This document shows, one piece after another, positions 14,689 to 22,201 of a stretch of 22,342 nucleotides of DNA. The notes beneath the pieces are model-generated. The model was not told where the DNA came from. It worked only from the letters and a program-made list of their open reading frames with translations, and searched no databases. Made by a program: the position numbers and the translations under genes. Source of the DNA: a virus; IMG/VR virus record IMGVR_UViG_3300006921_000179, positions 1 to 22,342 of that record; one strand, given 5' to 3'. Each line of letters opens with the position of its first letter. Within the stretch, counting starts at the first letter, position 1.

Positions 14689-15134
14689 TGCTATCTACAC
14701 ACTTTTCTCTAAGCGAGCTTACAAAGTCTGAGACGGCCACTCGCAAGGGTATCGACAACACGCCCAACGGCACTGAAATTGAGAACCTGATTATCCTTTG
14801 CAGCGAGATACTGGAACCCGTCCGGGAGCACTATGGCGTACCGTTTGTGCCCAATAGCGGTTACAGGGGTCTGGATCTAAACCGGGCGATTGGTTCTTCG
14901 GACAAGTCTCAACACGTTACGGGCAATGCCGTAGACTTTGAAGTTCCGGGGTTCGACAACAAGGAGGTCGCGCTCTGGGTTATGGAGAACTGCGACTTCG
15001 ACCAGCTAATCCTGGAGTTCTACAAGGAGGGGGAGCCCACTAGCGGCTGGGTGCATTGCAGCTACGACGCATCCAAGACACACCGCAAATCGGCTCGCAT
15101 CTTTGACGGTCGTACTTGGACAGCGTTAGGCTAG
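14685..15134 (+). CDS. Endolysin: zinc D-Ala-D-Ala carboxypeptidase-like peptidase M15
   Basis: This 149-aa protein has the layout of the peptidase M15 (M15_3/DUF882-type) family, which cleaves peptide cross-links of peptidoglycan. The visible hallmarks are NSGYRGLDLNRAIG (57-70), SQHVTGNAVDFE (76-87) supplying zinc ligands His77 and Asp84, and GWVHCSY (121-127) supplying the third ligand, His124. Glu111, in LILEFY, is a candidate catalytic acid. No signal peptide or cell-wall-binding domain is present, so a holin or similar factor would be needed for export; none is seen next to it. It is the last gene of the virion block. Two adjacent ATGs exist (14685 and 14688), and the first overlaps the previous stop. 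The gene's 3' end overlaps the 3' end of the oppositely oriented helicase by nine bases. Confidence 0.88.
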   Translation: MMLSTHFSLSELTKSETATRKGIDNTPNGTEIENLIILCSEILEPVREHYGVPFVPNSGYRGLDLNRAIGSSDKSQHVTGNAVDFEVPGFDNKEVALWVMENCDFDQLILEFYKEGEPTSGWVHCSYDASKTHRKSARIFDGRTWTALG

Positions 15135-16565
15135 CCAGTTCCTCGCGTCCTCTCCTAGTATTGTATCGGCAATCCTGATTTTGTTCCGCAGGGCGGTGAC
15201 GATCTTCTCGTCTATAGTCTTGGGCGAGATCAGGTCGATATAGGTTACCTTGTTCTCTTGACCGATGCGGTGCGCCCGGTCTTCGGACTGAAGCCGTAGC
15301 TCCAGATCATAGCTGTTGCTGTAGTAGACCACGGTGTTTGCAGCCGTAAGGGTCAGACCGTAACCGCCTGTTTTAGGATGCCCCACGATGAAACGTAACT
15401 CCGATTGCCGATCTTGGAATGTTTCCACGATCTGTTGGCGCTCAGAATCAGGGGTCTCACCGTGGAGCGTTGCGACCGCTTGTACGCTAAAGCGGTCACG
15501 CAGGGCCTCGGCAATTGAACGAATATCCTGCGTCCAGGTCGCCCATATAATCGCCTTACCCTGTATCTCCTCGCAGATGTCCATGAGTTCGGACTGACGG
15601 TTGGACTTCAGGGGATGAACTTCCCCGTCGTCATCCGTCAGGCTACCCAGACATATCTGCTGAAGACGCATTATCTGCGTCAATACGTTTTGCGTGGTGG
15701 ACAAGTCACCACTGTCCAACCGAGCTAGCGCCAGATTTTTCATCTGTACGTAAGCGTCGGATTGTTCTTTGGTTAGCTCTACCTCGCGCTTCATGTACAC
15801 CTTGTCGGGCAGGTCGAGGCAATCTTCCTTGCGAACCCGGAAGGAGTGGCCGTCCAGCGTTTCGGTCAGTTCGTCCAGCCTCTGGAAACCGAGTATCTGA
15901 TTGAAGGAGTGCGCTCCCATGCTCCGGCGCTGCACCACGGCGTAGCGGCCTTGGAACGCATAGTAGCTCTTAAAGCCAAGTATCTTGGGGCTTAAAAAGT
16001 CCATCTGACTAAAGAGGTCCATGGGCGACTTCGTGACCGGGGATCCCGTCAGGATGCGCCGCATTACCGCACCACGGCCCACGGTGCATATAGACTTGGT
16101 CCGCTTGGCCTGCCGGTTCTTGATAGTGGTTGATTCGTCCACTGCCATGAAGACCTTAAACTTCTTAACGAAGAAGTCCGCGACATCGACACCCTTCTTT
16201 GTACTAAACGCCTCTATGTTCATCAGCAAAAACTTCAGCTTGGAGCTAGGCTCTGCAAGGGTCTTCAGTTCCTCGCGCTTTGTTTTTGTCAGATTGGGCT
16301 TCCATAGAACGACCTCCCGGTCTATGCGTTCGGGAAGATGCGTATCTATTTCGCCTATCCAGTTGGCGATAACACCCTTGGGTGCTACGATGACCGCGAA
16401 GTCAACATTCTTTCCTTCGAAGTTATGCGCGATGGTGTCTATGCAAACTTTTGTTTTGCCAGTACCCATGTCCATCAGAAGTGCGAAGTTCTCCTGATCC
16501 GCGCTGCCGTTAAAGGCTTCGCGCTGGTGCTCGTAAGGTTCGGTCTTAAAATCGAATCGGGGCAT
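15126..16565 (-). CDS. SNF2-type SF2 helicase / translocase
   Basis: This 479-aa enzyme carries the full two-RecA-domain SF2/SNF2 motif set. YEHQ is near residue 11 (Q-like). MGTGKT at 33-38 is Walker A, and APKGVIANW at 61-69 is motif Ia. DEST at 143-146 is Walker B, where DEAH is usual in SNF2. LTGSPV at 172-177 is motif III, TGGYGLTLTAANTVVYY is motif V, and SEDRAHRIGQ at 427-436 is motif VI. It is compact, with no extra accessory domains. Such phage proteins are annotated as DNA helicases and may remodel protein-DNA complexes, displace DNA strands or assist replication. It is the only minus-strand gene, divergent from the replication operon and convergent on the endolysin. A candidate promoter lies directly upstream; the ribosome site (AGAGAAA) is weak. 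The family call is secure; the biological role is not. Confidence 0.9.
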   Translation of the reverse strand: MPRFDFKTEPYEHQREAFNGSADQENFALLMDMGTGKTKVCIDTIAHNFEGKNVDFAVIVAPKGVIANWIGEIDTHLPERIDREVVLWKPNLTKTKREELKTLAEPSSKLKFLLMNIEAFSTKKGVDVADFFVKKFKVFMAVDESTTIKNRQAKRTKSICTVGRGAVMRRILTGSPVTKSPMDLFSQMDFLSPKILGFKSYYAFQGRYAVVQRRSMGAHSFNQILGFQRLDELTETLDGHSFRVRKEDCLDLPDKVYMKREVELTKEQSDAYVQMKNLALARLDSGDLSTTQNVLTQIMRLQQICLGSLTDDDGEVHPLKSNRQSELMDICEEIQGKAIIWATWTQDIRSIAEALRDRFSVQAVATLHGETPDSERQQIVETFQDRQSELRFIVGHPKTGGYGLTLTAANTVVYYSNSYDLELRLQSEDRAHRIGQENKVTYIDLISPKTIDEKIVTALRNKIRIADTILGEDARNWLA

Positions 16566-16656: not shown

Positions 16657-17232
16657 ATGAATGACTTACTCTCCGAAATGGCTTCAGACTCTGGAGCAAC
16701 CTCCGACAAAATAGATCAGCTAGAAGAAGGTAAGCTCGACGCTGTTTCGCGTCTGGCAAATGAAGCAGCCGCGCTAGAGCAAAAGCTGGCGGACGCCGAG
16801 AAGCTGATGAAAGAGACCAAGGCCGCTCTCCACAAGATAACGGACGAGCATCTGCCGGAAGCCTTGGAGGTCATGGGTCTACAGAAGTTTACCTTGACCG
16901 ACGGATCAGAGATTGCCGTCAAACCTATTTACGCCGCCAGTATCCCCCGCGACCGCAAGGACGAAGCATTCCAGTGGTTGCGTGACCATGACTTTGGCGA
17001 CCTCGTAAAGAACAACGTGACCGTCACTTTTGGTCGCGGCGAAGACGACACTGCAAAGGAATTTGTAGACCTTTGTGGCACACAAGGATTCGTTCCCAGC
17101 CAGTTGGAAAAGGTCGAACCTATGACCTTGAAGGCGTGGCTTCGGGAGCGGGTAGAAGCGGGGGACCCCGTCCCGCTTGATCTATTCGGGGCTTTTATCT
17201 CACAACGAGCAACCATCAAAAGGAGCAAGTAA
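16657..17232 (+). CDS. Coiled-coil early phage protein (DUF7173-like)
   Basis: This 191-aa protein is the first gene of the replication operon, with AGGAG eight bases before the ATG. Residues about 17-65 form a predicted coiled coil (LANEAAALEQKLADAEKL). A compact C-terminal domain follows: GLQKFTLTDGSEIAVK, ASIPRDRKDEAFQWLRDHDFGDL, VTVTFGRGED and MTLKAWLRERVEAGDPVPLDLF. I recognise this pattern from a widespread uncharacterised phage family next to SSB or recombination genes, tentatively DUF7173. No catalytic residues or nucleotide-binding motif are evident. Being promoter-proximal and just upstream of an SSB-like gene, it is probably an early DNA-replication or recombination accessory factor. 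The gene ends ATIKRSK; its last codons contain the ribosome site of the next gene. Confidence 0.65.
   Translation: MNDLLSEMASDSGATSDKIDQLEEGKLDAVSRLANEAAALEQKLADAEKLMKETKAALHKITDEHLPEALEVMGLQKFTLTDGSEIAVKPIYAASIPRDRKDEAFQWLRDHDFGDLVKNNVTVTFGRGEDDTAKEFVDLCGTQGFVPSQLEKVEPMTLKAWLRERVEAGDPVPLDLFGAFISQRATIKRSK
17215..17230 (+). repeat. Copy 1 of a 16-bp direct repeat carrying a ribosome binding site
   Basis: ATCAAAAGGAGCAAGT ends the coiled-coil gene and supplies the AGGAG for the HTH gene at 17234. It matches 15 of 16 bases of a copy 211 bp downstream. A shorter version (GGAGCAAAGAACATG, 16645-16659) precedes the first gene of the operon. Confidence 0.8.
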
Positions 17233-17233
17233 C

Positions 17234-17443
17234 ATGCCTTTAGAAGAATGGATGGCTTTGACGGCCACCACCCAAGGACAGCTAGCCCGACATCTCGGGA
17301 TTTGCCAGACAGCAGTATCTCGATATCTAAGCGGTCAGCGGATCCCACGGCCCTCTGTGATGCTGGATATATATGAGGTATCCGATGGCGATGTTTCGCC
17401 AAACGACCTTGTTCTGGGGCGAACTATCAAAGGGAGCAAGTAG
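17234..17443 (+). CDS. Small Cro/YdaS-like helix-turn-helix protein (69 aa)
   Basis: Start ATG 17234 is chosen because AGGAG lies ten bases upstream and the previous gene stops at 17232. An in-frame ATA/ATG-type extension to about 17177 would overlap the upstream gene by 56 bases and adds nothing conserved. Residues 12-40 (TTQGQLARHLGICQTAVSRY, then LSGQRIPRP) form a textbook Cro/C1-type HTH with a recognition helix at about QTAVSRYLSG, similar to YdaS-like Cro proteins. The protein is only a DNA-binding domain plus a short tail ending TIKGSK. It sits inside the replication operon and is flanked on both sides by copies of a 16-bp repeat. It may autoregulate the operon or bind the inverted repeat at 16595; no operator assignment can be made from sequence. 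Confidence 0.8.
   Translation: MPLEEWMALTATTQGQLARHLGICQTAVSRYLSGQRIPRPSVMLDIYEVSDGDVSPNDLVLGRTIKGSK
17426..17441 (+). repeat. Copy 2 of the 16-bp direct repeat with ribosome binding site
   Basis: ATCAAAGGGAGCAAGT covers the end of the HTH gene and gives GGAG before the SSB-like ATG at 17446. One base differs from copy 1 at 17215-17230. Together the copies bracket the HTH gene exactly. Confidence 0.8.
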
Positions 17444-17445
17444 CA

Positions 17446-18225
17446 ATGGCAACAGCAGTAGCCAAAAAGAAGTCCGCCGCCGTGGCGGTTATGGACGAGA
17501 GCATGTTTGCGGCTGACGCAGGCGTTGGGGTCAACGATCTCGGATCGGAAGACCTCGCAATACCTTTCATCAAGGTGCTGCAAAAGATGTCCGACGAACT
17601 GGACGATCTGGATAACGCCAAGGCCGGTGACATTTACAACACCGTGACGAAAGACATCGTCAAGGGTAAGGATGGCGTTCGCGTAATCAACTGCGCGTAC
17701 AATCTCCAGTATATCGAATGGGAGCCCAGGGGCACCGGAACGGGAGCACCTCATGCCATCTACGGCGCGGGGGACGAGATACCCCAAACCGAAAGGGGAG
17801 ACGACAATAAGGACTACGTTGTCGGCGGCAGCGGTCGCTATCTTGAACGCACCGCGCAGCATTACGTTCTCGTTATTGACGAAGACGGCGTGACGCAACA
17901 GGCACTTCTGCCTATGAAGTCCACGCAGTTCAAGAAGTCGAAGCAGTGGAACTCGGCTATGAGGTCGTTAAAGATGAAGGATAGCAAGGGCAACCTGTTT
18001 ACGCCCCCTCGCTTTTCGCACATCTGGAAGATGGAGACGGTCTCCGAGGAGAACAAGAACGGTTCTTGGCACGGCTGGCAGATCAGCAAGGACGACGTGG
18101 TTAAAGACCCCAACGTCTACGCAGAGGCAAAGCTGTTTGCCGAATCGATCCAAGCGGGTCAGGTAAACGTCAAGCACGTCAGAGAGGAAGACAAAGAAAC
18201 CTCTGACGAAGACATCCCGTTCTAG
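17446..18225 (+). CDS. Probable phage single-stranded DNA-binding protein with SSB-type tail
   Basis: This 259-aa protein starts at ATG 17446 after a GGAGC site. A Lys/Ala-rich N-terminus (1-15) is followed by SEDLAIPFIKVLQKMSDEL (34-52), AGDIYNTVTKDIVKGKDGVR (60-79), YIEWEPRGTG (89-98) and beta strands such as TAQHYVLVIDEDG and HIWKMETV. This segment order is one I associate with phage ssDNA-binding or recombination-mediator proteins with an OB-like fold. The end is an acidic tail closing SDEDIPF (253-259), nearly identical to the bacterial SSB tip that recruits partner proteins. Position before the primase fits. The OB fold itself is not proven from sequence. The gene is followed by a strong hairpin. 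An alternative is an unrelated replication protein that merely carries an SSB tip. Confidence 0.65.
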   Translation: MATAVAKKKSAAVAVMDESMFAADAGVGVNDLGSEDLAIPFIKVLQKMSDELDDLDNAKAGDIYNTVTKDIVKGKDGVRVINCAYNLQYIEWEPRGTGTGAPHAIYGAGDEIPQTERGDDNKDYVVGGSGRYLERTAQHYVLVIDEDGVTQQALLPMKSTQFKKSKQWNSAMRSLKMKDSKGNLFTPPRFSHIWKMETVSEENKNGSWHGWQISKDDVVKDPNVYAEAKLFAESIQAGQVNVKHVREEDKETSDEDIPF

Positions 18226-18231
18226 GACATA

Positions 18232-18260
18232 CGGGGGGAGGGAAACCTTCCCCCGGTTTT
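18232..18260 (+). terminator. GC-rich hairpin with short T tract between SSB-like gene and primase
   Basis: Bases 18234-18242 pair with 18246-18254: nine pairs including one G-T, AAA loop, plus an outer C-G pair across one mismatch. TTTT follows at 18257-18260. This resembles an intrinsic terminator, although the T tract is short and two G bases intervene. The primase ATG is only 11 bases after the stem, and the only SD-like GGAGG lies in the left arm, so the structure could also control primase translation. Partial termination is most likely, because the downstream operon must still be expressed. Confidence 0.6.
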
Positions 18261-18265
18261 CCATA

Positions 18266-19807
18266 ATGAAAAAAGAAATAGAAAGATTTGCGCGGTTATT
18301 CCGTGGTCTGAACCGAGCCTACGGGGCTCTGGATCTGACTACGAAGGACGCTCGTGGAAAGCAAAAGGGCAAATACAAATTTGTCCACGAACCACGGACC
18401 AGCGTTACATACGAATCACACCTTAAAGGCGAGACCAGCATAGGCGTTGTCCCTATCAACGAGGACAACCTGTGCCTGTGGGGTGCCATAGATATTGACC
18501 AGTATCCGTTGGACCATGCCGCGATATTGAACAAACTAGACGAACTGGAAATACCTCTGGTCGTATGCCGCAGCAAGTCCGGGGGCGCTCACCTTTATCT
18601 TTTTATGTCTGAACTGGTAGAGGCCGAGAAGCTACAGATAAAGCTAAAAGAGGTTGCCGCCGAGATAGGCTTTGGCGGATGCGAGATCTTTCCAAAACAG
18701 ATCAAGCTGGTTCTAGAGCGCGGCGACAACGGAAACTTCCTAAACCTGCCGTACTTCGATCACGAAGGAGGGCTGCGCTATGCCTTCAACAAGGATGGTA
18801 GCGCCGCGACACTGGAGCAGTTCCTCGACCTAGCGGAGAAGTCCGCGATTAACGAGAAGGCTCTGGATGACCTCCTAGCCAAGTCGGTTCCCGACGTTGA
18901 CAACAAGCTGAAGGACGGACCTCCCTGCCTGCAAGCTTTGCTGCGTCAGGGTTTCCCGGAAGGCACACGAAACAACGGACTATTCAACCTGGGAGTATAT
19001 CTGAGGAAGGCTTACCCCGACGAGTGGGAAACCAAGATCCTCGAATACAATCAGAACATCATGGAGCCCGCGCTAGACCTAAAAGAGGTCAACATTGTCG
19101 CGGACCAGATAAAAAAGAAAGATTACCAGTACAAGTGCGCGGACCAGCCTATCTGCAATTTCTGCAACAAGGACCTGTGCCGCAGCCGAAAGCACGGCGT
19201 GGGCGGTGGAGCAAACACGCCGACCGTAGCCAACCTTCGTAAGTATGACAGTGAGCCGCCGCTGTGGTTCCTCGACGTTAACGGCAGTCCGGTTGAACTG
19301 GACACCGAGGGCCTACAGAAGCAGCCGCGCTTTCAGATACTGTGCATGGAGCAGATAAACTTCATGCCCCGGACTATTACCCGCCAAGCTTGGGAAGCCC
19401 AGATGAACAGCCTTCTGGGTCAGATGGTCGATACAGAAGGTGCGGTGATATCCACCTCCGAGGACACCAGCCTTCGCGGTCAGTTCTACGACATGCTAGA
19501 AGAGTTCTCCACGCACATGCAGTCCGCGATGGACAAAGAAGAGATCCTGCTTCGCCGCCCATGGACCGACGAAGAAGAAGGCAGAACATATTTTAGGCTC
19601 AAGGACTTTGAGGCGTTTCTTAAACGCAACAAGTTCTTCGAGTATCGATCCAACAAGATAGCGCAGCGCCTTAGAGATATTGACGGCAGATCCGAGCAGT
19701 TCCGAATCAAGGGGCGCACCGTCCGGTGTTGGTCGATACCGGCCTTTGCGAAGATAGAAGAGGCTTTTGAGTCTCGCTTTGATGACGAGGAGGACATTCC
19801 CTTTTGA
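18266..19807 (+). CDS. TOTE-type archaeo-eukaryotic primase (AEP) with PriCT-like and Cys-cluster regions
   Basis: This 513-aa protein resembles the AEP primase domain of TOTE conflict systems. Motif I is AIDID (74-78; Asp76 and Asp78 for metal). Motif II is SKSGGAHLYLF (103-113, His109). EIFPKQ (140-145, possible third acidic ligand Glu140) is followed by GNFLNLPYF (156-164). Residues 233-251 (GTRNNGLFNLGVYLRKAYP) look like a primase C-terminal PriCT helix bundle. Cys291, 297, 300 and 305 form a probable zinc site. The C-terminal ~130 residues are mixed and end DDEEDIPF, an SSB-like tip. It would make primers for the family A polymerase downstream. ATG 18266 is the only plausible start, yet it lacks a Shine-Dalgarno site and follows a strong hairpin. 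The family call is confident; priming activity is inferred. Confidence 0.85.
   Translation: MKKEIERFARLFRGLNRAYGALDLTTKDARGKQKGKYKFVHEPRTSVTYESHLKGETSIGVVPINEDNLCLWGAIDIDQYPLDHAAILNKLDELEIPLVVCRSKSGGAHLYLFMSELVEAEKLQIKLKEVAAEIGFGGCEIFPKQIKLVLERGDNGNFLNLPYFDHEGGLRYAFNKDGSAATLEQFLDLAEKSAINEKALDDLLAKSVPDVDNKLKDGPPCLQALLRQGFPEGTRNNGLFNLGVYLRKAYPDEWETKILEYNQNIMEPALDLKEVNIVADQIKKKDYQYKCADQPICNFCNKDLCRSRKHGVGGGANTPTVANLRKYDSEPPLWFLDVNGSPVELDTEGLQKQPRFQILCMEQINFMPRTITRQAWEAQMNSLLGQMVDTEGAVISTSEDTSLRGQFYDMLEEFSTHMQSAMDKEEILLRRPWTDEEEGRTYFRLKDFEAFLKRNKFFEYRSNKIAQRLRDIDGRSEQFRIKGRTVRCWSIPAFAKIEEAFESRFDDEEDIPF
19787..19794 (+). promoter_or_regulatory. Shine-Dalgarno site built from the primase acidic-tail codons
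   Basis: GAGGAGGA, which encodes the Glu-Glu-Asp of the primase tail, lies nine bases before the TTG start at 19804. This is a near-ideal anti-16S match and is the main reason to accept the rare TTG start. Confidence 0.7.
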
Positions 19808-20028
19808 CCTACGAAAATACCAACTGGAGCAAGCTTCTCCGGGAACTGAGACAAGAAAAGAAGCTGACGCAAAAAGAACTCGCGTACAAAAGCAAGATGC
19901 CGCAGCGCACGATAGCTGAGTATGAGAACGTGGGCGCAGCACGGCAGCTATCTATCTACAAGATAGAGCAGATACTGGATGCTCTTGGCTACGAAATAGA
20001 TGTGTTTCTGAAAGTGAAAGATGTTTAG
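19804..20028 (+). CDS. XRE-family helix-turn-helix regulator (74 aa), TTG start
   Basis: The start is TTG at 19804, overlapping the primase stop as TTGA. There is a strong GAGGAGGA upstream, and no ATG, GTG or other TTG occurs before the HTH. Residues 9-60 are a Cro/C1-type HTH: LLRELRQEKKLTQKELAYKS is helices 1-2, MPQRTIAEYENVG holds the recognition helix, and KIEQILDALGYEIDVFLK is the closing helix. It resembles the small DNA-binding half of HipB-type or phage-repressor proteins, with no dimerisation or cleavage domain. It overlaps the next gene by eight bases, so the two are translated together. Four of its five isoleucines use ATA. Target DNA is unknown; autoregulation of the replication operon is the simplest guess. 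No toxin partner is seen, so a toxin-antitoxin role is not supported. Confidence 0.8.
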   Translation: MTYENTNWSKLLRELRQEKKLTQKELAYKSKMPQRTIAEYENVGAARQLSIYKIEQILDALGYEIDVFLKVKDV

Positions 20029-21544
20029 ATATTTTGGTCCTCCGGGTACGGGAAAAACAACCACGCTGCTGAACCAAGTAGACGCCCTGCTATCGGGCGG
20101 CATGTCACCGAACGACATTGGGTATTTTGCCTTCACACGCAAAGCGGCCCACGAAGCACGGGACCGGGCGGTCGCACGATTTAACCTGGACCCAGAGAAG
20201 GACTTCTCCTACTTCCGGACGCTGCACAGTCTGGCGTTTCAGTGCCTTGGCATGTCCAGCGCCGACGTTCTCGGGGACAAGGGTCTCAAGGGGTTTAGCA
20301 AGGAGACGGGTGTAGACCTGTCATCTTCCGGGGCAGAGCACATAGTGGACGACGGGTTCACTCTTATGAAATCCAACAACCCCATCATGCGGGCAATTGA
20401 TCTGGCGCGGAACTCGTTACGGGGCATTCAGTATGCCTACAATGTTACGGAACTCGACATTCCGTTCTACGAGTTTGAACACCTGTACAAGGAATACGAA
20501 CGCTTTAAGGCGTTTAATGGTCTCAAAGACTTTACCGACATGATGGTAGAGCTATCCGAGAAGCCGGGAAACCTGCCGGTCCTCAATACGATATTCCTTG
20601 ACGAGGCGCAGGATCTCACCCCGCTACAATGGCGGGTAGCCCACAGTCTGAACGAGAGGTGCGAACGTATGTTCGTTGCTGGCGACGATGACCAAGGCAT
20701 ATACCGCTGGGCCGGTGCCGACATAGGGCACTTTGTCTCTCTGGAAGGTGGGTCCGAGGTCCTCTCCCAATCCTATCGTATACCCCGCAGCGTTCACCGG
20801 ATTGCGGATTCGGTTGTTCAGCGCATCCATAGCCGCCAGAAGAAGATCTGGGATCCTCGACAGGAAGAGGGCAGTGTCGAGAGAACCTACGACGCCAGCA
20901 CGGTTTCGTTTGGTGACGAGGAGTGGCTCGTTCTAGCACAGGCCAACTACATGCTGGATGACCTTGCAGACAGGCTGACCTCAAGCGGACATTACTTCGA
21001 GCGCAAGGGTTCCCCGTCTTTGAAAAAGAACGTGCGGAACGCCATCAGTTCTTGGAACCACATGCAACAAAGTCCGGGTCACGAGATATCCCTGAAGGAG
21101 GCCGTCAACATCTACGACCACATCTCCAGCGGAGAAGGGCGTCTGAAGCGCGGGGCCAAGAAGATGCTATCCGGTGCCGACGAGCAGGACCTGTTTACGA
21201 TATCAGTTCTTCGCCAGCACTTTGGGTTAGAGACTGCCGACGACACATGGGACGTGGCGCTGGACCGGATAGGCGACGAAGATCGGGCATACGCTACCGC
21301 ATTGCTCAACCGAGGCATCAACATCTTTGAGAAGCCCAAGATCAAACTGTCCACGATCCACGGTGCAAAGGGCGGCGAGGCGGACAACGTACTCCTGTTC
21401 ACGGACCTGTCAGGCAAGGCCCTCAAGGAGATGGAGAAGAACCCCGACGATGCTCACCGCGTTCTGTACGTTGGAATAACACGCGCAAAACAGAACCTCG
21501 TGCTCAAGATGCCCGAAGACTCCCAAAGAGGTTGGGCGATATGA
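20021..21544 (+). CDS. UvrD/Rep-like SF1 DNA helicase
   Basis: This 507-aa protein has all core SF1A motifs: GPPGTGKTTT (6-15, Walker A), FAFTRKAA (37-43 region, Ia), DEAQD (194-198, motif II), GDDDQGIYRWAG (221-232, motif III), QSYR (250-253, motif IV), STIHGAKGGEADNV (444-457, motif V) and VLYVGITRAK (481-490, motif VI). It should translocate on ssDNA and unwind duplex ahead of or around the fork. It is shorter than UvrD (about 720 aa), closer in size to compact phage helicases such as Dda. It begins only five residues before Walker A, so the usual N-terminal Q-motif is absent; a TGA at 20015-20017 in the same frame rules out an upstream extension. It overlaps the HTH gene before it by eight bases and the gene after it by four. 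Confidence 0.92.
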   Translation: MFRYFGPPGTGKTTTLLNQVDALLSGGMSPNDIGYFAFTRKAAHEARDRAVARFNLDPEKDFSYFRTLHSLAFQCLGMSSADVLGDKGLKGFSKETGVDLSSSGAEHIVDDGFTLMKSNNPIMRAIDLARNSLRGIQYAYNVTELDIPFYEFEHLYKEYERFKAFNGLKDFTDMMVELSEKPGNLPVLNTIFLDEAQDLTPLQWRVAHSLNERCERMFVAGDDDQGIYRWAGADIGHFVSLEGGSEVLSQSYRIPRSVHRIADSVVQRIHSRQKKIWDPRQEEGSVERTYDASTVSFGDEEWLVLAQANYMLDDLADRLTSSGHYFERKGSPSLKKNVRNAISSWNHMQQSPGHEISLKEAVNIYDHISSGEGRLKRGAKKMLSGADEQDLFTISVLRQHFGLETADDTWDVALDRIGDEDRAYATALLNRGINIFEKPKIKLSTIHGAKGGEADNVLLFTDLSGKALKEMEKNPDDAHRVLYVGITRAKQNLVLKMPEDSQRGWAI

Positions 21545-21903
21545 GAGTTATTATTGAGAGCCCCTATAGCGGGGGACATCCCGACAACATCGAATACGCT
21601 CGACGCTGCCTGTGGGATTCCATACTGCGCGATGAATCACCCTTTGCGTCCCACCTACTGTACACCCAAGTGCTAGACGACAAGATATCGGAGCAGCGAC
21701 AGAACGGTATGAAGCTCGCCCTCGCATGGTACGAAGTAGCAGAACTCTGCGCCGTCTACATGGACCGTGGAATGACGGAGGGCATGGAGAGCGGAATCAA
21801 ACACGCAAAGTCACTTGGAATACCTATTGAAGAAAGGATGTTGAACGATGGCAGTACCAGCCAAACAAGTTTTGGAGACAGCTTTAGATCTAATTGGGGG
21901 TGA
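21541..21903 (+). CDS. DUF7768-like protein, possible nucleotide-metabolism fold
   Basis: ATG 21541 overlaps the helicase stop (ATGA) and has AAAGAGG upstream, so this start is preferred over a TTG at 21532. The 120-aa product shows RVIIESPYSGG (2-12), NIEYARRCL (16-24), ASHLLYTQVLDD (36-47) and VYMDRGMTEGM (72-82), with IKHAKSLGIPIEERML near the end. These are hallmarks of a small phage family I know as DUF7768 and resemble the Rossmann-like nucleoside 2-deoxyribosyltransferase / DUF4406 fold. A nucleotide or NAD-related role is possible but unproven. The last ~18 residues are encoded inside the next gene's start region and do not look conserved. Its place before a MazG-like protein and a DNA polymerase supports nucleotide metabolism. 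Confidence 0.7.
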   Translation: MRVIIESPYSGGHPDNIEYARRCLWDSILRDESPFASHLLYTQVLDDKISEQRQNGMKLALAWYEVAELCAVYMDRGMTEGMESGIKHAKSLGIPIEERMLNDGSTSQTSFGDSFRSNWG

Positions 21904-22201
21904 CCGTGCCGCTGACTACGGTTCGATGTGGGAGAACCACGAAAATATAGCCCGGTTATGGAACGGCTACCTGTACAATAAAGAAGGTGATCTGACTGCC
22001 GAGGATGTAGCCAACCTGATGGAGTTGATGAAGATCGCCCGACGAAAGTTGGGGACGCTGAAGAAGGATAATTATATTGACGGCGCAGGCTATGCAGCGG
22101 TGGCCTTCGAGTGCGCCAAGGAACAGTATGATCGGAGCGGTGTCTCTGACCAACTGTCCCTCGAACTGTTGGCAAAGAAGTACCATGAAAAAGAATCTTA
22201 A
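21848..22201 (+). CDS. DUF6378-like (MazG-like helical) phage protein
   Basis: This 117-aa protein starts at ATG 21848 with AAAGGA nine bases before it, overlapping the previous gene by 56 bases. The pattern DRAADYGSMWENHENIARLW (19-38), then LTAEDVANLMELMKIAR (49-65) and DNYIDGAGYAAVA (74-86), is that of the phage family DUF6378. This is an all-helical protein with conserved Glu, Asp, Asn and His that may belong near the MazG NTP pyrophosphohydrolase superfamily. If so, it would trim nucleotide pools or modified nucleotides, but activity is not established. It lies immediately before DNA polymerase and overlaps it by 17 bases. The family call is moderately strong; the enzymatic assignment is inference. 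Confidence 0.72.
   Translation: MAVPAKQVLETALDLIGGDRAADYGSMWENHENIARLWNGYLYNKEGDLTAEDVANLMELMKIARRKLGTLKKDNYIDGAGYAAVAFECAKEQYDRSGVSDQLSLELLAKKYHEKES

Follow-up and report, generated by a model that had tools for sequence, protein, structure and literature searches.

Matched C-terminal peptides on an AEP primase and a probable single-stranded DNA-binding protein appear to change together across a large phage group

Results

The replication module of the virus fragment

The viral DNA analyzed here, called the window, measures 22.3 kb and comprises positions 1 to 22,342 of virus record IMGVR_UViG_3300006921_000179. Tail and virion genes fill its first 15 kb, and a replication module follows. 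The module is edged by an SNF2/HepA-type helicase gene on the minus strand (15126..16565), and its order in phage DSL-LC04 is identical. Then come a gp33-like gene (16657..17232, plus strand; PF23984, phrog_2378), a small Cro/YdaS-like helix-turn-helix (HTH) protein gene (17177-17443), the gene for an SSB-like protein of the Pam3 gp34-like family (17446..18225, plus strand; 259 amino acids; PF23977, phrog_2402) and the gene for an AEP primase with an AEP-TOTE domain (18266..19807, plus strand; 513 amino acids; PF22548, phrog_21866). A second Cro/YdaS-like small HTH gene (19804-20028) overlaps the primase stop codon and is followed by a UvrD-like helicase gene (20021..21544, plus strand). Located 3' of the helicase, at 21532-22201, are the overlapping frames of DUF7768 (nucleoside deoxyribosyltransferase-like) and DUF6378.

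The window contig stops before the expected gene for a family-A DNA polymerase (PolA), which lies downstream in 39 loci of the window clade. The closest named genome is that of DSL-LC04, with a primase 50% identical to that of the window and the same gene order, followed by PolA. The gp33-like protein, the SSB-like protein, the AEP primase, the UvrD-like helicase and PolA form a constant gene set.

Identity of the two neighboring proteins

The first-pass annotation of this DNA had named the larger of the two neighboring proteins an AEP primase, and the profile match (PF22548, 49 bits), the catalytic motifs and the predicted fold bear this out. Residues D76 and D78 of the DxD motif, S105 and H109 of the SxxxH motif, and D154 of the GD motif are invariant, and the AlphaFold2 model (pLDDT 87) has as its closest solved fold in Foldseek the CRISPR-associated Prim-Pol (CAPP) structure 7nqe (E=1e-10). 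Judged by its sequence the enzyme is an AEP primase, and primase activity is predicted. The last 20 or so residues are modeled with low confidence (pLDDT about 60 for residues 500-513), and the tail is probably flexible.

The SSB-like protein matches the PF23977 profile with 215 bits against a cut-off of 27, and this is the only profile that matches; that of the canonical bacterial SSB (PF00436) does not. PF23977 and phrog_2402 comprise hundreds of phage members without an assigned function, and the cyanophage paper that we searched assigns none to gp34 of Pam3. A sequence search of solved structures with the SSB-like family returned nothing. The AlphaFold2 model (pLDDT 85) gave no significant Foldseek match; its weak top matches include RPA2, PrgE, Rim1 and SsbB (E 0.03-0.4, with low TM scores), and several of these are OB-fold ssDNA-binding proteins. 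The model is disordered from about residue 240, with pLDDT below 50 for residues 250-259. Taking low pLDDT as an indirect sign, a disordered linker is predicted between fold and C-terminus in both proteins.

No PF00436 SSB was present in any of the 12 named phages searched, and so the gp34-like protein is by elimination the likely SSB of these phages. A counterpoint to this elimination is that Acinetobacter-type relatives also encode a second small ssDNA-binding protein. This protein, phrog_18154, adjoins PolA in Acinetobacter and Salmonella relatives and ends in DDDLPF or DDDIPF (L085:29932-30255; L087:21114-21455; L093:22127-22429), and the gp34-like and primase tails in these loci end in EF, EY or EM. 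In three other loci (L266, L282 and L313) the gp34-like proteins have arginine-rich ends (ARRR or RSFRR) and no hydrophobic tip.

An EDIPF tip on both proteins

The C-terminus of the SSB-like protein reads ETSDEDIPF and that of the primase RFDDEEDIPF. The tip of the former is encoded at 18208..18222 on the plus strand (GAA GAC ATC CCG TTC), directly before the stop codon TAG at 18223-18225, and that of the latter at 19790..19804 on the plus strand (GAG GAC ATT CCC TTT), directly before TGA at 19805-19807. The codons confirm the first-pass claim that both neighbors end in EDIPF, SDEDIPF in one and DDEEDIPF in the other, with four of the five codons synonymously different. The interval first given for the pair, 18199-19807, has its start inside the SSB-like gene, and the whole pair spans 17446-19807.

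We fetched 80 close relatives, 77-100% identical, and counted distinct C-termini. All 46 primase C-termini end in [DE][DE]xPF, and of the 49 distinct SSB-like C-termini all end in PF and 45 in [DE]xPF. Close homologues of the primase without the tip were looked for and none was seen. In the window and in all close relatives the C-terminal residue is thus Phe and the penultimate residue Pro, as in a bacterial SSB C-terminus. Those loci also contain 1129 other ORFs on the same strand with 150 or more amino acids, of which 2 end in PF, 1 in [DE]xPF and 35 in F. The close relatives have I, V, L, M, T or Q at position -3, and the linker is more variable. In 60 distinct primase DNA sequences of the clade the Pro of the tip is written with all four codons and the Phe with both, with no replacement, and the same pattern is found in 59 sequences of the SSB-like gene. 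The constancy of PF despite synonymous codon change indicates purifying selection on the peptide, so that in the window clade the tip is, on sequence grounds, under selection. This agrees with the earlier suggestion of selection on the peptide as opposed to recent duplication; a recent duplication of the tail is ruled out by the differing codons and unrelated linkers.

A third carrier of the tip was not found in the module: the gp33-like protein (ending in IKRSK), the UvrD-like helicase (ending in QRGWAI) and PolA are without it, and the first two are themselves candidate partners of the tips. Apart from unrelated ORFs that occur singly, the only other carrier was phrog_18154, the small SSB of the Acinetobacter and Salmonella phages. 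In the open-access literature searched, which is a partial literature, we found no description of such a tail on an AEP primase, consistent with the statement in the first-pass annotation that none was known.

Tip variants across the wider family

Searching with divergent primases and with named phages widened the survey to a large phage group, marine and freshwater; as queries, the R5C and DMU1 primases returned only 1 and 3 viral loci, respectively. In an alignment of 72 primases that reaches down to about 36% identity, at least 90% retain the terminal Phe, whereas the neighboring columns vary. Of the 214 distinct C-termini of primases in the four large clades, 206 end in an aromatic residue (46/46, 67/67, 43/51 and 50/50). 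In the DSL-LC04 clade the acidic residues before the hydrophobic end are largely lost: the primase ends in a basic SPF tip (KKGSPF or TQRSPF) and the SSB-like protein in ENIPF or PAPF. In Acinetobacter-type relatives the primase ends in SEF and the SSB-like protein in GEF or DEY. The two tips are unlike each other in the 023Pt clade, with ENF or EDF on the primase and PY (TPY) on the SSB-like protein. Other tip pairs are NIV/DIV in the HTVC027P clade, APY/QPY or TPY/APY in contigs from SAR11 single-cell genomes, ELI/DLI in a contig binned with a Lachnospiraceae MAG, PDL/PEL and PDL/TEL in two viral contigs, and DPY/APY and NY/NY. Judging from these C-termini, the acidic EDIPF is one version of a C-terminal hydrophobic anchor that persists on both proteins in most lineages.

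The primases of Nanhaivirus (ending in GEA) and of the HTVC023P clade (ending in GKFRT) lack the aromatic end. PolA is present in Nanhaivirus R5C and Pan1 and in the HTVC023P clade, and the SSB-like tip stays in the lineages without a primase tip. Nanhaivirus, where PolA and the SSB tip occur without a primase tip, demonstrates that the latter is not required. The HTVC023P clade (L397-L465) has, in place of the terminal tip, a different and strongly conserved primase tail, EMDDEFHTGKFRT. In ct3Et533 (primase at L083:14688-16214, and its SSB-like ORF) both proteins extend one residue past PF, ending in PPPFV and DIPFA.

A separate class, AEP primases fused to a DUF5906/D5-type helicase (L515:9974-12235; L524:9989-12187; L560-L564), also carries PF tips in several lineages: DDEDIPF in a Mesorhizobium contig, LDDDVPF in an element of a Rhodospirillaceae MAG, SDKPPF in YuA gp26, SDTPF in Rhizobium phage RHph_TM26, DKNPF in Epa5 and KKDPF in PA_LZ03. 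The fused primases of Vibrio J2, AAT-1, RDJL2 and Donnerlittchen are without a PF tip. A gp34-like SSB was not found in L515 or L524.

Phage tips and the SSB tips of the accompanying bacteria

The canonical form of EDIPF raises the possibility of host mimicry, in which the two phage proteins would imitate the SSB tip of the host and bind Pol III chi, PriA, RecO, ExoI, RecG or DnaG to recruit or block them. EDIPF is the canonical bacterial SSB tip and would fit the hydrophobic pocket, basic lip and basic ridge of the host pockets (PMC10164576). In the genomes and single-cell assemblies that hold contigs of these phages, the bacterial SSBs end in DDDIPF, DDEIPF, DEDIPF, EEDIPF or DDDLPF, and in EELPFN in Lachnospiraceae. 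The phage tips in those same genomes, however, are PY, IV or LI; the binning of phage contigs into MAGs is uncertain, and the single-cell genomes are the better guide. Binding to host SSB pockets depends on the terminal Phe with its carboxylate and on the acidic residues, and it is abolished or weakened when the Phe is lost or the Pro is changed (PMC10164576). Given these requirements, divergent phage tips beside canonical host tips mean that no fixed pocket of the host can serve as receptor throughout the family. The earlier proposal of docking on host SSB partners does not hold as a general function, since the paired tips change to basic-flanked SPF (KKGSPF), ENF, PY, IV, LI and DL while the bacterial SSBs stay canonical, and on this sequence comparison mimicry of the host SSB does not by itself explain the family. 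We regard it as rather unlikely to be the main role of the tips, although docking on host proteins may be an additional role in the EDIPF clade, where the tip is canonical.

Covariation of the two tips

Coordinated change of the tips was assessed in 76 representatives below 75% identity, against a null in which one trait was re-evolved on the tree of the primase core. The last-residue states match in 46 of the 76 against 31 expected (p 0.003-0.01 under the phylogeny-simulated null), and their mutual information is significant under the same kind of null (p 0.0005-0.001). A Pagel test is significant for aliphatic ends (p = 0.004) and not significant for aromatic-versus-rest (p 0.11). Covariation at position -2 is weaker (p about 0.02), acidity at positions -3 to -10 gives no signal, and the signal is limited to positions -1 and -2. 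The same test gave no significant covariation of the PolA, UvrD or gp33 C-termini with the tips. Matched changes between sisters are seen for VDPF/SVPF against DVL/SVM and for DPF/DAPF against ELI/DLI, and the pairs NIV/DIV, PDL/PEL and NY/NY are matched changes elsewhere on the tree. An independent-pairs test counted 3.9 same and 0.1 opposite changes and was not significant (median p 0.125), with too few contrasts. By these comparisons of sequences the two tips change together in evolution, beyond what phylogeny accounts for. Such paired changes point to one co-evolving docking site, probably encoded by the phage, and a changing receptor is what host mimicry fails to provide.

Acidic hydrophobic tails could instead be generic tags that have no partner in common and serve solubility, stability or protection from C-terminal proteolysis. 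Strong variation of the tips between clades and the occurrence of Phe at the end of 3% of other ORFs would suit this explanation; it is made very improbable by a PF that hardly varies within the clade while its codons change synonymously, by the limitation of pairwise covariation to the last two residues and by the absence of such tails from PolA, UvrD and gp33 in the same operon.

Tail autoregulation is known for T7 gp2.5 and E. coli SSB, and this precedent makes self-binding another candidate. The tips would bind the SSB-like protein itself, in cis or in trans: its own tail would cover the DNA site, and the primase tail would compete for the groove and load the primase on covered DNA. Covariation of the tips would then follow without a third protein. 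The tail of the SSB-like model is, however, left disordered, and the SSB tip stays in lineages without a primase tip, so that the primase is not needed for upkeep of the SSB tip; we consider self-binding distinctly unlikely.

Discussion

The pair of tips first noticed in one virus fragment gains in scope as a feature of a whole family, in which the two tips co-evolve, and loses host-SSB mimicry as its general function. Tip covariation and the canonical tips of the host SSBs together make it probable that a single site, encoded by the phage and specific to its lineage, receives both tails. The best explanation, which we would put at about an even chance, is that the primase and the probable SSB share a C-terminal docking peptide (E-D-I-P-F in the window) on flexible tails, and that both tails, either in turn or from separate copies of the proteins, bind the same pocket of one replisome partner encoded by the phage, most likely its PolA. 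Docking of the tails would bring the polymerase to strands coated with SSB and to newly made primers, and SSB and primase would hand off through competition for one site. PolA is our best guess for the receptor, named by analogy and co-occurrence: it is encoded in 10 of the 10 named phages with an AEP primase. Serratia phage Hera and Pseudomonas phage LBL3 encode a gp34-like protein and Pol III alpha and no PolA, and tblastn found no AEP primase in either. Sequence observations that count against this explanation are the 023Pt clade, where the tips are unlike each other, and Nanhaivirus R5C/Pan1 and the HTVC023P clade, which have PolA without a primase tip.

Among the docking hubs of bacterial DNA replication the SSB tip is the best known, and the textbook example of a replisome wired through tails is that of T7. 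An unrelated primase and a probable SSB with matched, co-changing tips amount to a natural experiment in such wiring, repeated in tens of lineages with different code letters, and suggest that both tails connect to one and the same component of the replication machinery of the phage itself. It is predicted that the receptor pocket must change with the tip, so that the partner could be found by co-folding and tip swaps. A likely role is also offered for PF23977 and phrog_2402. A broader generalization is that the primases and SSBs of PolA phages follow a convergent T7-like rule, sharing a lineage-specific peptide code because a single receptor drags both tips, and that this arose again in the D5-fused AEP primases of other phages and elements; we hold this tentatively, at somewhat below an even chance.

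Comparison with known systems

The tips resemble the bacterial SSB C-terminus (DDDIPF) and its hub of partners in the final Phe, the penultimate Pro, the preceding acidic residues and the disordered linker. They differ in that a primase is among the carriers, in that the family of the probable SSB is PF23977 and not PF00436, and in that the tips of the family drift to PY, IV, LI and DL in step on both proteins. The primase shares the catalytic AEP domain with the AEP-TOTE/CAPP family, as the profile and Foldseek matches indicate; unlike CAPP enzymes it sits in a phage replication operon, and it adds zinc-ligand-like cysteines (C291, C300 and C305) and a C-terminal region with a docking tail. 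The polymerase-SSB primase pairs of mobile elements (PMC10061031) likewise combine a primase with a dedicated small ssDNA-binding partner of the element; those pairs form a folded PolA-SSB complex, whereas the proteins described here are separate and linked only by a shared peptide tail.

The closest parallel is the T7 replisome, in which an SSB-type protein and a primase carry similar tails with a terminal Phe (gp2.5 ends in DEDGDF and gp4 in SNDTDF) and a family-A polymerase is encoded in the same phage. The acidic tail of gp4 binds basic patches of the PolA-family polymerase gp5 (PMC12593628; PMC5997990). Here, too, the SSB-like protein and the primase end in Phe, and a PolA-family polymerase is seen in the relatives of the window. 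BLASTP gave no significant match to T7 gp2.5 or gp4, and the phages of this family differ from T7 in having an AEP instead of a TOPRIM primase, a separate UvrD-like helicase, and a PF and not a DF tip. Because the T7 tails include one with known binding to gp5 and the proteins here are not detectably related to gp2.5 or gp4, we propose that the same wiring principle has been built from other parts. On this analogy the pair of tips would be the T7 arrangement assembled from unrelated proteins.
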